A stretch of DNA of 40,030 nt from Myxococcales bacterium. Its GTDB lineage: Bacteria; Myxococcota_A; Polyangia; Polyangiales; Polyangiaceae. The notes beneath the pieces are model-generated. The model was given only the letters and a program-made list of their open reading frames with translations. It searched no databases and had not been told where the DNA came from. Below are positions 6,154-12,332 of this stretch, piece after piece (positions within the stretch are counted from its first letter, which is position 1; each line of letters begins with the position of its first letter). The DNA lies in assembly GCA_012514535.1 (NCBI GenBank), contig JAAZAA010000403.1, forward strand, positions 1-40,030. Direction: 5' to 3'. A program made the translations under genes and the position numbers.

Positions 6154-7938
6154 TCAAGGGGAAGAGGTCGGGCTCGGGTGTACCATGAGTTTTTCGAGCT
6201 CGGAGCGCACGTTCGGGTGCGTCATCGGATCGCGCGCGGCCTCCAGCACGACCGCGCGGCCCTCTTCTCCTCCGAGGAGCCACAGCGTTTGCGCCGTGAG
6301 GACCACCGCCTGGGCCAGCTCCGGTTCACTGGCGGCGGTTCGATAGAGGGTGAAGTAGGCGCTGAGCTCGGGGACCTGCTCGGGCCCCGCGAGGTGCCGC
6401 AGCACGCGCGCGAGCATCAGCTGATCGATCATCGACGTGCGCGGATCGATGAGGTGCTGCGCGAGCGCCGGAGCGCCTTCTTTGGCGTTCACGGCGAAGA
6501 GGGCCGAGGCGATGGCGGCGATCGGGGCGGGGCGCTTGGTCACTTCGAAGTCGGCGCCGTCCTCGAGGGCCGCGATCAGGTGCTCGACGCCGGTCCGTCG
6601 CATGGCGATGCGGCGCGCCGTCTGATCGGCGAGATCCGCCGAGGCCCGCGGGCTCCGGGCGATCTCCAACAACAAACGGGTCACCTCGGGCGCCGGGTTC
6701 GCCGCCAGCTCGTCCAGGAGCAGGTGGTGCACCGGGGCCATGTCGGGGCCCGTGTCCGTCAAGGTCGTGGCGACCTGCTCGGCGAGGGGAACCGGACGAG
6801 CCACCGTGATGGGCCGCGGATCCGGGCTCACGACGCAGGCGCGCAGGCGCGCGCCCAGGGTGCCGGAGCTGGCGCGGGAGCCGTCCGCCCAGGCGAGGCG
6901 CCAGAGGGAGCCGTCTTCGAGGCAGAGGGTCATGCCCTCGCTGCTGCTCGCCGCCCCGAGCACGTCCCGCAAGAAGTGAGTGGCCCAGCGCAGCTCGCCG
7001 CCGCGGGCGCCGAAGCCGAGCACCACCCGGTAATAGATCGCTCCGAAGGCGTCCTGAGCGAAGCGGAGGCGATCGCCGTCGATCCGCGGGAACGCGTGGA
7101 TGGCCACGGGGAAGGCGCGCGGCGCGAGCGCCACCGTGCCGTCCGTGGGCCACCGGGGCGCGCCGGGGAGGTTCTTCGGTGGGAGCTCCAAGGGATGCGG
7201 ACGCGGCGCGGACAGGACATCCTCCGAGAGGCGCAGCACGCCTCGCCCGAGCAGCAGCACGCCCTGGAGGTCCGCCACGGCGGTCGTCGTGGAGTTCTCC
7301 ACCAGGAACTGCGCCAGCGGCTCTCCCTGGGCGAGATCGATCACGGTGACGTAGCGACCGCTCCAGGGGACGAGGCCCAGGCCGCCGACGGTGGTCGGTT
7401 GCCCCAGGGCGGGCTCGGAGCGCGTGCGGTGCCGCACGACGCCCTCCTGATCCACGATCAGGACCAGCTGCAGTCGGCTGTCGTGGGGATCCGTCAGCAC
7501 GAGCAGCGCGTGTTGGCCGTCGTGGGCCATGGCGGAGAGCTGGCGCCCTTCGCTGTCGATGCTCCACTGGAGCTTGCCGTCGCGCAGGTGATGGAGGCGC
7601 ACGTGACCACCGCCGGAGACGGCGACGAACTCGCCGTCCAGGGCGGGCAGGGTCTCGACGGGCCCCACCTGCTCCCAGCGCTCCCCGTCGGGCAGCGCGC
7701 GGCCGACGAGGCCACGTCCGGTGACACCCACGGCGCCAGCGATGGCGGGTTGCCGCTTCTCCGCGTCGATCCGCTCGAGCAGGGGGCGCGCCGCGGCACC
7801 TCGCAGGGGCGACCGGGGCGTGAACGCCTCTTCCAGGCCCGATGCGCCGCCGCAGCCCCCCAGCAGGGCCGCCATGGTACAAAGCGCGGCCAACGAGGTA
7901 ACCTGATTCCCGGCCGCCCTCCCCTTGCCCATGACCAT
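6154..7938 (-). CDS. Lipoprotein with beta-propeller and HEAT-like repeats
   Basis: A predicted outer-membrane or periplasmic lipoprotein of about 594 residues. A hydrophobic signal ends in the lipobox ALLGGC (Cys near residue 29). Residues about 60-370 contain repeated short strands of the PQQ/WD-like type (for example DGEFVAVSGGGHVRLHHLRDGK and TVIDLAQGEPLAQFL), suggesting a beta-propeller. The C-terminal 200 residues are helical with HEAT-like repeats (VTRLLLEIARSPRASADL and similar). It may be a scaffold or surface protein; no enzyme motif was seen. Two starts are possible, ATG at 7938 (GGGAG upstream) and ATG at 7932. Both overlap the start of the divergent Nudix gene. It lies immediately upstream of cysE, possibly cotranscribed. 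I do not recognise a named family. Confidence 0.75.
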   Translation of the reverse strand: MVMGKGRAAGNQVTSLAALCTMAALLGGCGGASGLEEAFTPRSPLRGAAARPLLERIDAEKRQPAIAGAVGVTGRGLVGRALPDGERWEQVGPVETLPALDGEFVAVSGGGHVRLHHLRDGKLQWSIDSEGRQLSAMAHDGQHALLVLTDPHDSRLQLVLIVDQEGVVRHRTRSEPALGQPTTVGGLGLVPWSGRYVTVIDLAQGEPLAQFLVENSTTTAVADLQGVLLLGRGVLRLSEDVLSAPRPHPLELPPKNLPGAPRWPTDGTVALAPRAFPVAIHAFPRIDGDRLRFAQDAFGAIYYRVVLGFGARGGELRWATHFLRDVLGAASSSEGMTLCLEDGSLWRLAWADGSRASSGTLGARLRACVVSPDPRPITVARPVPLAEQVATTLTDTGPDMAPVHHLLLDELAANPAPEVTRLLLEIARSPRASADLADQTARRIAMRRTGVEHLIAALEDGADFEVTKRPAPIAAIASALFAVNAKEGAPALAQHLIDPRTSMIDQLMLARVLRHLAGPEQVPELSAYFTLYRTAASEPELAQAVVLTAQTLWLLGGEEGRAVVLEAARDPMTHPNVRSELEKLMVHPSPTSSP

Positions 7939-8626
7939 CCGTTCGGTGCTCCCTGATTTGCCTGAGGTTCGCCTCGAAGTGCTCGAGGATCTCTCGCCGC
8001 CGAGCCAAGGGTTCCTGCGGCTGACTCGACGACGCTACCGGGCGCGCCACGGGGAGGAAACCGTGAGCGCCCCCTTCGTCTACGACGAAGTGGACCGGGA
8101 CGCCCTCGACGCCGTCGTGATCGTGCCCCATTTCTTGGGGCCCGCGCCCGAAGGGGGCAAGGGCGCGGAGCGCTACGTCTACCTGCGGAGCGCGGTGCGT
8201 CCGCCCGTGGAGATGCGCGACGCGGCGCGCTCGGCGGTGCCAGAGCCGGAGATTCGTGCCCTGTGGGAGGCGCCGGCGGGCCTCGTGGAGCCGGACGAGG
8301 AGACCCCCGAGGGGATCGTGCGCTGCGCCCGGCGCGAGCTCGCCGAGGAGGTGGGCTTCGACCTGCCGACGGGCGCCTTCCGCCTCCTCGGACCGTCGAC
8401 GTTTCCCTGTCCCGGCGTCATCGCCGAGCGGCACCACTACTTCCACGTGGAGGTCGACCCGGCGCAGCGGGGCGAGCCGAGCTTGGATGGTTCGCCCCTC
8501 GAGGCGGCCGGGATCGTGGTCGCGGTGCCCCTGCGGGAGGCCCTCCGGGCCTGCCGGGACGGTGATTTGGCAGACGCCAAGACGGAGCTGGCGCTCCGGC
8601 GCCTCGCGGAGGTCCTCCTCGGATGA
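7931..8626 (+). CDS. Nudix hydrolase (ADP-ribose pyrophosphatase-like)
   Basis: A 231-residue Nudix-fold protein. The catalytic helix is clear: GLVEPDEE followed by RRELAEEVGF, the metal-binding REUXEE core. The spacing between the Gly-Glu part and the Arg-Glu core is four residues longer than the textbook 23-residue Nudix box, because of an extra GIVR-like turn. The upstream PEIRALWEAPAG and downstream CPGVIAERHHYFHVEV resemble ADP-sugar/ADP-ribose pyrophosphatases. Substrate is inferred, not proved. It overlaps the NAD kinase gene by an ATGA junction (8623-8626), which links it to NAD(P) metabolism. The start ATG at 7931 overlaps the divergent lipoprotein start. An in-frame GTG at 7946 is an alternative. 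Neither has a good Shine-Dalgarno. Confidence 0.82.
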   Translation: MTIRSVLPDLPEVRLEVLEDLSPPSQGFLRLTRRRYRARHGEETVSAPFVYDEVDRDALDAVVIVPHFLGPAPEGGKGAERYVYLRSAVRPPVEMRDAARSAVPEPEIRALWEAPAGLVEPDEETPEGIVRCARRELAEEVGFDLPTGAFRLLGPSTFPCPGVIAERHHYFHVEVDPAQRGEPSLDGSPLEAAGIVVAVPLREALRACRDGDLADAKTELALRRLAEVLLG

Positions 8627-9507
8627 CCGAGAGAGTCATCGTGGTGGCCAAGCGCTCGAGCTACTCGAGGCTGACGACCGGCGACGTGGACCAACGGGCG
8701 AAGGTGCTGTTGCGGCGCGGCGACCCGGCCGTGCGGAAATGGAAGCCGGCCCATGAGGCCCACGTGCGCACCCTCGAGAAGGTGCGCGAGGCCCTGGACT
8801 CGCTCGGCGTGGAGGCGCTCGTCCTGCATGGCTCCCACGCGTCCTTCGAGCCCCGGGGCGTCTCTCTGGTCGTGACCGTCGGGGGCGACGGCACGCTGCT
8901 CGCGGCCTCCCACAGCGTGCACGACGTGCCGATCCTCGGCGTGAACAGCGCGCCTCGTTACAGCGTCGGGTTTTTCTGCGCTGCTCGCGCCCAGGGCATC
9001 CGCAAGACGCTCGCCGACGCCCTCGAGGGGCGCCTCCCCGAGACCCGCTTCAGCCGCATGGCGGTGAGTGTGAACGGTCAGGTGCGTTCGGAGCGCGTGC
9101 TGAACGAGGCGCTCTTCTGTCACGCCGTGCCTGCGGCCACCTCGAACTACATCCTGCAGGTGGGGCGCATGAAGGAAGAGCAGCGGTCGAGCGGGTTCTG
9201 GATCGGCCCCGCCGCGGGCTCCACCGCCGCGCAACGCTCCGCGGGCGGGCGCGTGCTGCCCCCGACGTCCAAGAAGCTCCAGCTGGTGGTGCGCGAGCCC
9301 TACTCCGTCGAGGGGCACCGGTACCGGCTCATCCGTGTGGAGATCCCCGACGGTGAGCGCGCCCTCGTGAAGAGCAAGATGCACCGGGCGTGCCTGTTTC
9401 TCGACGGCCCGTACCTGGCGATCCAGGTGCGGCTCGGGGACGAGGTGACCTTCCAGCGCTCGCCCCAGAGCTTGCGCGTCCTTGGCCTCCAGCGACGCCC
9501 GCGCTGA
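8623..9507 (+). CDS. nadK: NAD(+)/NADH kinase
   Basis: Phosphorylates NAD(H) to NADP(H) in the cytoplasm. The 294-residue protein has the signature GGDGT motif at residues 87-91 in a context typical of the family (VVTVGGDGTLLAASH). It also has an LNEALFCHAV segment (the family NE/D nucleotide-binding motif) and the Gly-rich GSTAAQRSAGG loop near residue 200. The N-terminal third is longer and more basic than in E. coli NadK. Its ATG overlaps the stop of the Nudix gene (ATGA), so the two are translationally coupled. A Nudix enzyme that breaks ADP-ribose or NAD-type compounds together with NAD kinase is a sensible functional pair. Its downstream neighbours on the same strand are nicotinamide salvage genes. 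Confidence 0.9.
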   Translation: MTERVIVVAKRSSYSRLTTGDVDQRAKVLLRRGDPAVRKWKPAHEAHVRTLEKVREALDSLGVEALVLHGSHASFEPRGVSLVVTVGGDGTLLAASHSVHDVPILGVNSAPRYSVGFFCAARAQGIRKTLADALEGRLPETRFSRMAVSVNGQVRSERVLNEALFCHAVPAATSNYILQVGRMKEEQRSSGFWIGPAAGSTAAQRSAGGRVLPPTSKKLQLVVREPYSVEGHRYRLIRVEIPDGERALVKSKMHRACLFLDGPYLAIQVRLGDEVTFQRSPQSLRVLGLQRRPR

Positions 9508-9849
9508 GGGGGAGCGAAGACTTCGAGTTGGGAGGCAGGGGCCAGCGCCGTGGGCGCGTGGTCGATTTCCAGCGGAGTGGGTCGACGTGGTCGACGTCGA
9601 GTTGGCCTGCCTTCCACCCCCGGCGGGTGCCAGAGGCACGCGAGCTCCAGCGGAACCGGCAGGGAGGCCGGGTTTCGTAGGAGGGCCTGCATGGCGCGCC
9701 CTGGCTACGTCGGTGGGCTCAACGCCCTCACGTCGACCGGGGAAAAAGGTCAATAACAACCAGCGGTTGTGACCGGATCTGCGCGGGCCTCGATGCGGGA
9801 GGGCTCCTTTCGTTTGACTTAGTGTGCGTGTGACACTTAGAGTTAGTGT
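9508..9849 (+). other. 342-bp intergenic region upstream of the NAMPT gene
   Basis: No convincing gene. The first 230 bases are GC-rich and featureless apart from short GTCGACGTGGTCGACGTCGA-like direct repeats near 9583-9601. From about 9740 the composition becomes AT-richer. The region then holds an inverted repeat at 9756-9770 (ACAACC-agc-GGTTGT) and the candidate NrtR operator at 9818-9850, so this is the regulatory region for nicotinamide phosphoribosyltransferase. Confidence 0.6.
9756..9770. promoter_or_regulatory. Inverted repeat ACAACC-agc-GGTTGT
   Basis: A perfect 6-bp inverted repeat with a 3-base centre, flanked by an outer GGTC/GACC pair with a small bulge. It sits about 80-95 bp upstream of the NAMPT start. 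It could be a regulator site or the end of the NAD kinase transcript; no T-run follows, so a terminator is less likely. Confidence 0.35.
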
Positions 9850-9850
9850 G
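9818..9850. promoter_or_regulatory. Candidate NrtR-type operator upstream of NAMPT
   Basis: An imperfect inverted repeat CTTAGTGT-N7-ACACTTAG spans 9818-9840. A further direct copy of its half-site, TTAGTGTG, lies at 9843-9850 and runs into the GTG start codon of the NAMPT gene. The three half-sites together can hold a dimeric repressor over the transcription start. An NrtR-type Nudix regulator is encoded at 11649-12332, two positions downstream, and NrtR proteins normally control NAD-salvage genes beside them. That this is its binding site is an inference from position and symmetry. Confidence 0.6.
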
Positions 9851-11301
9851 TGAACAACACGAACCACGGGATCGCCCGGAAGCAGGACCTTCGGTACAGC
9901 CTCGTGGCCGACACGGACTCGTACAAGTTCAGCCACTGGAACCAGTACCCGCCCGGGACCAGCCGGATGATGAGCTACTTCGAGGCGCGCGGGGGAGAGT
10001 TCGCCGAGTGCACGCTCTTCGGTCTCCAGTACCTGCTGCACCAATATTTGGCGCGGACCATCACTCGGCAGGACGTCGCCGAGCAGAAGGCTTTCGCCGA
10101 AGCCCACGGCGAACCCTTCAACGAGGCAGGCTGGCTCCACATCGTGAATCGCTACGGCGGGCGCCTCCCGGTGCGGATTCGCTCCATCCCCGAAGGTACC
10201 GTGGTGCCCGTGTCCAACGCGCTCTTGACCATCGAGAGCGTGGACGACCCCCAATGCGCCTGGATCGTCAGCTGGCTCGAGACGATGCTGGTGCGGCTCT
10301 GGTACCCGAGCACGATCGCGACGACGAGCCGCGAGTCGAAGAAGGTGCTGCGGGAGTTCCTCGAACTCACCGCGGACGACCCCGCGGCAGAGCTTGGCTT
10401 CAAGCTCCACGACTTTGGGGCGCGGGGGGTGTCCTGCCTGGAGCAGAGCCGGCTCGGCGGCGCCGCCCACCTGCTGAACTTCTTCGGATCGGACACCGTG
10501 GAGGGGATTCGCCTCGCCAACCACTTCTACGGGGCCGACATGGCCGGCTTCTCCATCCCCGCGACCGAGCACTCGACCATGACGATGTGGGGCGAGGACG
10601 GCGAGCAGGACGCTTTCGAGAGCTACGTCCGCCACTACCTGCTCGAGCGGCAGGTGCCGCCTGGCATGCCCAAGCTCGCCGCGTGTGTCTCGGACAGCTA
10701 CGACATCTTCCGAGCCGTCGAGCAGTACTGGTGCGGCGAGCGCATCTTACCGCTGCTGAAGGCTTCGGGGGGCACGCTGGTGATCCGGCCCGATTCCGGC
10801 GACCCGCTCGAAGTATTGCCACGCATCTTCGAGATCCTCGAGTCGCGCGTGGGCATGACCGTGAACAGCAAGGGCTTCAAGGTGTTGCCTCCGTACTTCC
10901 GGGTGATCCAGGGCGACGGCATCGATCGCGCCTCGATGCGCGCGATCCTCGAGCGCCTCGCCGACCTGAAGATCAGCGCGTCGAACATCGCCTTCGGGTC
11001 GGGCGGCGGCCTGCTCCAGAAAGTGAACCGCGACACTCAGAAGTGGGCCTTCAAGTGCTGCAACGCCGTGGTGAACGGTCGCGCCGTGGACGTCCGAAAA
11101 ATGCCGGTGACCGACGTCGGGAAGCGCAGCAAGTGCGGACGGCTCGACCTGATCCGGACCGATCGCGGGTTCGAAACGGTGGCCCTCCCCGAGGGGCAGG
11201 AAGCGCACCCGGACACCGCCATGGTCACGGTGTTCGAGCATGGAATCATCACCCACGACACGACCTTCGCCGAGTGCCGCGCACGCATGGAGCTGCCATG
11301 A
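9850..11301 (+). CDS. nadV: Nicotinamide phosphoribosyltransferase (NAMPT)
   Basis: Makes NMN from nicotinamide and PRPP, the one-step entry of nicotinamide into NAD salvage. The 483-residue length matches the NAMPT family. Motifs in order: DTDSYKFSHWNQYPPGT (N-terminus), HDFGARGVS near residue 190, the catalytic-His segment IPATEHSTM near residue 237, IRPDSGDP near residue 315, and AFGSGGGLLQKVNRDT near residue 380. All expected catalytic regions are present. The start is GTG at 9850, with no good Shine-Dalgarno and a candidate operator touching the start codon, so the transcript may have a very short leader. Its stop overlaps the start of the broken gene at 11298 (ATGA), which shows that an intact downstream gene was once translationally coupled to it. 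Confidence 0.94.
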   Translation: MNNTNHGIARKQDLRYSLVADTDSYKFSHWNQYPPGTSRMMSYFEARGGEFAECTLFGLQYLLHQYLARTITRQDVAEQKAFAEAHGEPFNEAGWLHIVNRYGGRLPVRIRSIPEGTVVPVSNALLTIESVDDPQCAWIVSWLETMLVRLWYPSTIATTSRESKKVLREFLELTADDPAAELGFKLHDFGARGVSCLEQSRLGGAAHLLNFFGSDTVEGIRLANHFYGADMAGFSIPATEHSTMTMWGEDGEQDAFESYVRHYLLERQVPPGMPKLAACVSDSYDIFRAVEQYWCGERILPLLKASGGTLVIRPDSGDPLEVLPRIFEILESRVGMTVNSKGFKVLPPYFRVIQGDGIDRASMRAILERLADLKISASNIAFGSGGGLLQKVNRDTQKWAFKCCNAVVNGRAVDVRKMPVTDVGKRSKCGRLDLIRTDRGFETVALPEGQEAHPDTAMVTVFEHGIITHDTTFAECRARMELP

Positions 11302-11641
11302 CCTTGCACGAACTACTTCTCGAGTCAGGGGCCCTTCTGCACGTGTCCTGCACCGGGGCGGGTGCGTCGACAAGGCACGCCAGCGCCCTGGCAGCACCTT
11401 CGTGATCGGCGCCGACACCATGGCGCGCATGTTGGATCCTCGTTGGGGGCCCAGCCGAGACGAGGTCCTCACCGAACTCCGGAACCACCGCGCCACTTTC
11501 CTGGTGATGGGACGCGAGGTAGACGGGCGTTGGATGACCTGCCGCGACATCCCGGTCCCCTTCCCGTTCGGCCTGCTGTTCCGTCCCCTGGAGGGCCGCT
11601 TCGACATCAGCTCCACCGAGCTCCGCCACGCCACCGCCTGA
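11298..11641 (+). pseudogene. Remnant of CinA-like/NMN-adenylyltransferase fusion, internal deletion and frameshift
   Basis: Two pieces of one larger protein are left in different frames. The first, from the ATG at 11298, reads MTLHELLLESGALLHVSCTG and then stops at 11405. It looks like the beginning of a CinA-like domain. The second, in another frame from about 11362 to the stop at 11641, reads RPGSTFVIGADTMARMLDP, then FLVMGREVDGRWM and [23 protein letters not shown] and FVIGADT are nucleotidyltransferase motifs of NMN/NaMN adenylyltransferase-like proteins. The whole middle, including the HxGH nucleotide-binding site, is missing. In the fusion family I recall, a CinA-like half precedes the adenylyltransferase half, which fits both ends. 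It lies between NAMPT and the NrtR-type regulator, exactly where an NMN adenylyltransferase would be expected. Family recognition is from memory and needs a search. Confidence 0.7.
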
Positions 11642-11648
11642 GCCCCCG

Positions 11649-12332
11649 ATGCCCTACACCTACGAGTATCCCCGCCCAGCCCTGACCGTTGATTGCGTCG
11701 TCTTCGGTGCGGCCGACGATGGTCTCAAGCTCTTGCTCATCGAGCGGGCGGTGGAGCCTTTCAAGGGCCGCTACGCCTTGCCGGGCGGCTTCGTCGACAT
11801 GGACGAGACCACCGAGGAGGCGGCCCGGCGCGAGCTCGAGGAGGAGACGGGGCTCAAGGCTTCCTTCCTGGAGCAGCTCTACACGTTCTCCCGAGTGGAC
11901 CGAGATCCGCGCGAACGGGTGGTGTCGGTCGCCTACTTCGCCCTCGTACGCCCGTCGGCAGTCGTCGGCGGCGACGACGCAGCGAGCGCCCAGTGGGTAG
12001 ACGCCGACGAGTTACCTCCTCTCGCTTTCGACCACGACGAGATTGTCCGGGTCGCGCTCGAGCGGCTCCGGGCGAAGATTCGGTATCAACCGATCGGCTT
12101 CGAGCTCCTGCCGCCGAAGTTCACTCTCGGACAGCTCCAGCGGCTCTACGAGGACATCCTCGGGCGAGCCCTCGACAAGCGAAATTTCCGCAAGGCGATC
12201 CTGCGCATGGGGGTCCTTGATGAGCTGGACGAGGTCGAGGAGGGCGTCTCCCACCGACCTCCGCGCCTCTATCGGTTCAACAAGGCAGCCTACAAGCGGC
12301 TCGCCAAGCAGGGGTTCAACTTCGAGATCTAG
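11649..12332 (+). CDS. nrtR: NrtR-type Nudix transcriptional regulator
   Basis: A 227-residue protein with an N-terminal Nudix domain and a C-terminal winged-helix DNA-binding domain, the layout of NrtR, the repressor of NAD biosynthesis and salvage that senses ADP-ribose. The Nudix box is textbook and complete (residues 47-69: GGFVDMDE, then [10 protein letters not shown]), so catalytic activity is possible although many NrtR proteins have lost it. The C-terminal part, [20 protein letters not shown] and [11 protein letters not shown], is the winged helix that marks the NrtR family. The ATG at 11649 is 7 bp after the stop of the broken adenylyltransferase gene, with a weak Shine-Dalgarno. Position behind NAMPT supports the role. 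A general Nudix-HTH regulator of sugar metabolism is the alternative. Confidence 0.82.

Follow-up and report, generated by a model that had tools for sequence, protein, structure and literature searches.

We consider it likely that the 40,030-nucleotide stretch of DNA analysed here (the window) carries a self-regulated NAD-salvage operon of the form nadV-[NMN adenylyltransferase]-nrtR, in which the middle gene has become a deletion pseudogene. Three features are tightly packed on the + strand, namely nadV (9850-11301), a broken gene (11298-11641) and an NrtR-type gene (11649-12332), and this content, which had been proposed from the letters alone in the initial annotation as a nadV gene, a coding remnant and a Nudix-winged-helix gene, is confirmed by profile matches and by alignments of the remnants. 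The proposal is built on that gene content, on the two remnants, on a relative in which an intact gene occupies the same position, and on operators that are unique in the genome and conserved outside it; from these we infer repression and its effector, the enzyme activity and the way in which NAD is now reached. The source genome is a 5.77-Mb assembly in 442 contigs and is 98.8% complete.

The nadV gene is complete, with a GTG start at 9850, 483 codons' worth of protein (483 aa) and both NAMPT_N and NAPRTase domains in a Pfam search. Its product matches the curated family NF006629 (PRK09198) at 551 bits (cut-off 405, E = 1.7e-165); that family carries the title nicotinate phosphoribosyltransferase, yet we assign the product as a nicotinamide phosphoribosyltransferase (NAMPT). 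It is full-length with respect to this family of enzymes, and human and bacterial NAMPT structures match it at E values from 1e-123 to 1e-145 (closest solved structure 7yqo, E = 5.5e-145), which bears out the earlier description of a complete nadV-like gene. The window NAMPT is 51-52% identical to copies from bacteria of the same order and 65% identical to a NAMPT encoded on two viral contigs (L035 and L036:2769-5449), where a NadM-Nudix gene lies beside it. Near the window organism nadV is rare, being found in 4 of the 59 genomes searched with the window's own counted in, and it is absent from both same-genus genomes searched, so that no close strain shows an intact middle gene. This rarity suggests that the cassette arrived in the genome horizontally.

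The middle gene begins with an ATG at 11298 that overlaps the nadV stop codon (ATGA), and it survives as two pieces in different frames, one from 11298 to about 11366 and the other from about 11363 to 11641. The 5' remnant (11298-11405, + strand; MTLHELLLESGALLHVSCTGAGA) holds 22 native residues, MTLHELLLESGALLHVSCTGAG, after which it runs out of frame to a stop at 11403-11405, for a total of 35 aa. The 3' remnant (11363-11641, + strand; VDKARQRPGSTFVIGADT..., with 12 further protein letters omitted) ends at 11641, retains the GADT and ISSTELR motifs and represents the C-terminal part of a NadD-like adenylyltransferase domain. An HxGH motif is missing from both remnants in the translations of 11298-11641, and the remnant alone has no match in Pfam or NCBIfam. 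Its parentage is given by an intact relative: a Verrucomicrobiia contig (L010, genome G403) carries a 360-aa CinA-like/NadD-like fusion gene (6474-7556) with an NPPHNGH motif, directly after a nadV that is 64% identical to the window's, which is the intact gene that the initial annotation had suggested looking for at this locus in relatives. The 22 native residues are 50% identical to residues 1-22 of the L010 protein and 57% identical to residues 19-39 of a second intact copy, L011, and in a shuffle control 0 of 500 sequences reached either score. The 92 residues that start at about 11363 match L010 residues 267-333 (E = 4e-15) and are 55% identical to L011 residues 295-381 (E = 3e-30). The earlier reading of a FVIGADT/ISSTELR coding remnant without HxGH is thus upheld, with both of its ends aligning to the two ends of the intact L010 protein.

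Aligning both remnants with L010 and L011 places the deletion junction approximately at 11361-11367. The missing stretch, about 244-255 codons long, corresponds to L010 residues 23-266 or L011 residues 40-294 and contains the CinA-like domain and the catalytic HxGH. Because this motif is absent here and present in the fusion proteins of L010, L011, L012, L013 and L034, the window copy is, on sequence grounds, a pseudogene with an internal frame-changing deletion, known from one MAG assembly. That a single assembly, and one in so many contigs, lies behind the deletion also fits an assembly error in which about 0.75 kb dropped out of the MAG contig and the middle gene is whole in the living genome; the remnants show no further stop or frame damage apart from the junction, as expected for an intact gene or for a very recent loss. 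No repeat explains such a collapse, however, since neither a second copy of the C-terminal part nor a CinA-type domain besides the housekeeping one was found in the genome, and GC content does not shift at the junction, so we regard an assembly error as unlikely. The frame of the 3' remnant is open and its conserved motifs remain, as they would if it still gave rise to a small functional protein that might, for instance, regulate NadD. Against this, a characterised enzyme (PMC13036487) needs the histidines of its H/TxGH motif to act as an NMNAT, and with HxGH gone, enzymatic activity of the remnant is very improbable; there is also no evident start of its own just past the junction, and a stand-alone version was not found in the relatives searched. 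We give a working small protein the least weight of the alternatives considered and retain the reading of a deletion pseudogene. The cyanobacterial NMNAT-C of the same study (PMC13036487) was considered as the parent family and rejected, as its motif lies at His16/His19 near the N-terminus, unlike that of the fusion.

Besides L010, intact fusion genes were found in L011, L012 and L013, which belong to the window's phylum, and in L034, a 485-kb uncultured phage; a comparison of the intact fusion with plasmids found none. The phage gene (L034:5875-7026, LR745208.1, and L039:2950-4101) has an HKGH motif, and the surrounding 13 kb showed no nadV. When five intact fusion proteins were combined into a profile, it matched NadD structures (1kam, E = 1.3e-7) and, weakly, CinA (E = 0.012). 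Active NMN deamidases have a PncC YxNxxK block that is absent from this family, in which the catalytic Ser is mostly missing too, so the N-terminal domain is probably not a deamidase. A structure prediction for the L010 fusion from a two-row alignment reached a pLDDT of 46.6, too poor for fold comparison. Judging by its similarity to the NadD fold and its position beside nadV, the fusion most likely converted NMN to NAD.

Upstream of nadV, the initial annotation had described three half-sites forming one palindrome; an operator is present there, but it consists of two tandem full operators. These predicted NrtR sites are 21-bp palindromes with GTGT-N7-ACAC cores, TTAGTGT-N7-ACACTTA at 9819-9839 (spacer GCGTGTG, one mismatch to the palindrome) and TTAGTGT-N7-ACACGAA at 9843-9863 (spacer GTGAACA), lying 3 bp apart, and the second spans the nadV GTG start at 9850. 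When all 5.77 Mb were scanned with the pattern TTAGTGT-N7-ACACTAA, allowing up to three mismatches, only these two sites fell within one mismatch and two others had three mismatches; a reversed control pattern gave 11 matches per strand in the same genome. Under a first-order model with the window's composition, about 0.004 sites with at most one mismatch are expected in 5.77 Mb, and for tandem core pairs within 10 bp the genome-wide expectation is 0.001. Outside the window, a perfect copy of the palindrome stands just before the nadV start in L010, and at the nrtR locus of the same Verrucomicrobiia genome (L040) two GTGT-N7-ACAC sites lie in tandem over the start of nrtR, with 2 bp between them. 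A member of the window's own family (G003, L007) has an nrtR-nadV pair with tandem GTGT-N7-ACAC sites, again 2 bp apart, at the nrtR start. The palindrome is therefore found at a NAD gene or at the regulator's own gene and is conserved in relatives, and since site and regulator occur jointly in three genomes, each with its own gene order, they appear to travel together. Uniqueness across the genome and conservation before nadV or nrtR in two other genomes strongly support the predicted assignment of these operators to the local NrtR, as had been supposed. In genome G366, the intact fusion gene is preceded at a distance of about 100 bp by a further GTGT-N7-ACAC core (L011:2747-2767), which has four mismatches to the full 7+7 palindrome and may mark another regulon member.

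The regulator gene (11649-12332, + strand) encodes a Nudix-like domain (NUDIX, 83.7 bits) followed by the NrtR winged helix (NrtR_WHD, PF21906, 96.8 bits, cut-off 27), both above Pfam gathering scores. Its score against the NCBI equivalog NF050029 is 169 bits with a cut-off of 400, and we therefore file it as NrtR-type and not as that equivalog. The window genome holds one copy of the NrtR winged helix; the protein is 59% identical to the L007 NrtR of G003 and 61% identical to the one NrtR of the L010 genome (L040). The earlier description as an NrtR-type regulator stands for the Nudix and winged-helix domains but needs correction in that the DNA-reading helix is AraR-like: the recognition helix DKRNFRK is identical to residues 178-184 of Bacteroides AraR, which read GTGT in a crystal operator of the form GTGT-N7-ACAC, and most Bacteroides have two tandem AraR sites 3 bp apart (PMC4666351).

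AraR (5bs6, 188 bits) is also the closest solved relative, ahead of Shewanella NrtR (SoNrtR, 3gz5, 106 bits), and together with the shared helix and operator geometry this would suit a sugar-type, AraR-like sensor in place of one for NAD metabolites. The ligand domain points the other way. Its Nudix signature GX5EX7REUXEEXGU is complete and its Arg88 aligns with SoNrtR Arg98, an ADP-ribose contact, both features being lost in AraR, which has Gly at the latter position; the AraR pocket is not reproduced, with Val for Phe36, Arg for Gly89 and the Nudix glutamates retained, while the positions of AraR Arg34, Arg86 and His131 are kept in the window regulator and mostly kept in SoNrtR too. The genomic context also speaks against a sugar sensor, in that the regulator adjoins nadV here and in G003, G403 has the site ahead of nadV and a sirtuin-like frame after nrtR, and no sugar genes adjoin the regulator within the stretch read. 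We therefore consider sugar sensing highly improbable. Given the complete Nudix box, Arg88 and the nadV context, our best guess at the ligand is a derivative of NAD such as ADP-ribose, for which the pocket residues are suggestive. The G403 frame (about 1760-2575, after nrtR at L040:1048-1734) resembles a SIR2-type sirtuin, a NAD consumer that releases nicotinamide, and is possibly under the same tandem operator.

In the operon that we propose, NadV would make NMN from nicotinamide, and the middle gene would formerly have encoded a CinA-like N-domain and a NadD-like adenylyltransferase, most likely taking NMN to NAD, until the catalytic core was lost in an internal deletion of about 0.73-0.77 kb that also changed the frame. 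An NrtR dimer bound to the paired 21-bp GTGT-N7-ACAC operators at the nadV start would repress nadV and its own gene, and a NAD-turnover signal, most likely ADP-ribose, would free it from DNA, both steps being modelled on characterised NrtR proteins (PMC6800001). Because the genome encodes NadD (122 bits) and a CinA/PncC protein elsewhere, NMN plausibly still reaches NAD, probably through the chromosomal NadD directly or through NaMN after PncC deamidation. The upstream Nudix gene and divergent NAD kinase (7925-9507), which overlap with an ATG at 8623 inside the Nudix end, had been counted into one dense NAD block with the cassette, a claim that our analysis does not sustain: a 342-bp gap separates them from the operon, there is no operator at the pair and no link to the operon was found, so we reject them as part of it and regard them as probably a chance neighbour. 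Relatives repeatedly show NAD-kinase matches at places apart from nadV; in G003 the best such match lies on a different contig from nadV, which is weak evidence given how short the contigs are.

More broadly, and with slightly less than even confidence, we suggest that a mobile NAD-salvage module may have spread across phyla, combining nadV, the CinA-like/NadD-like fusion in the role of NMN adenylyltransferase, and regulators from a separate branch of NrtR; these would read AraR-type tandem GTGT-N7-ACAC operators, sense a NAD-derived ligand and possibly hydrolyse it with their complete Nudix box. The window would offer a natural case in which the second enzyme was lost and the first step and its switch were retained.

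Among known systems, the window operon closely resembles the NrtR regulons of NAD metabolism as summarised for Rodionov 2008 in PMC4666351 and for MsNrtR in PMC6800001, sharing the Nudix and winged-helix architecture, adjoining NAD genes, a 21-23-bp palindrome with an N7 spacer and (here predicted) autoregulation; it differs from the regulons described there in its GTGT-core half-site, its complete Nudix signature and nadV as its predicted target. With Bacteroides AraR (BT0354, PDB 5bs6) it has in common the DKRNFRK helix, the GTGT-N7-ACAC site and the arrangement of two tandem sites 3 bp apart, whereas AraR binds L-arabinose, controls arabinose genes, lacks the Nudix glutamates and has Gly89 where the window regulator has Arg. 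The same DNA-reading helix and operator layout would thus be used by a sensor of arabinose in Bacteroides and by what appears to be a sensor of NAD metabolites in the window, so the ligand domain of the NrtR family appears to have changed while its DNA code was kept. The fusion protein resembles NadD in its C-domain and CinA weakly in its N-domain, and differs from PncC/CinA enzymes in the missing YxNxxK block and, usually, catalytic Ser; by its position after nadV it may represent an additional type of NMN adenylyltransferase. Also comparable are the phage NAD-salvage pairs of NadV with NadM or NadR (PMC9503650), in which a NAMPT likewise stands beside an NMN adenylyltransferase; those pairs use NadM-Nudix or NadR, whereas the putative partner in the window is a CinA-like/NadD-like fusion with a repressor attached.
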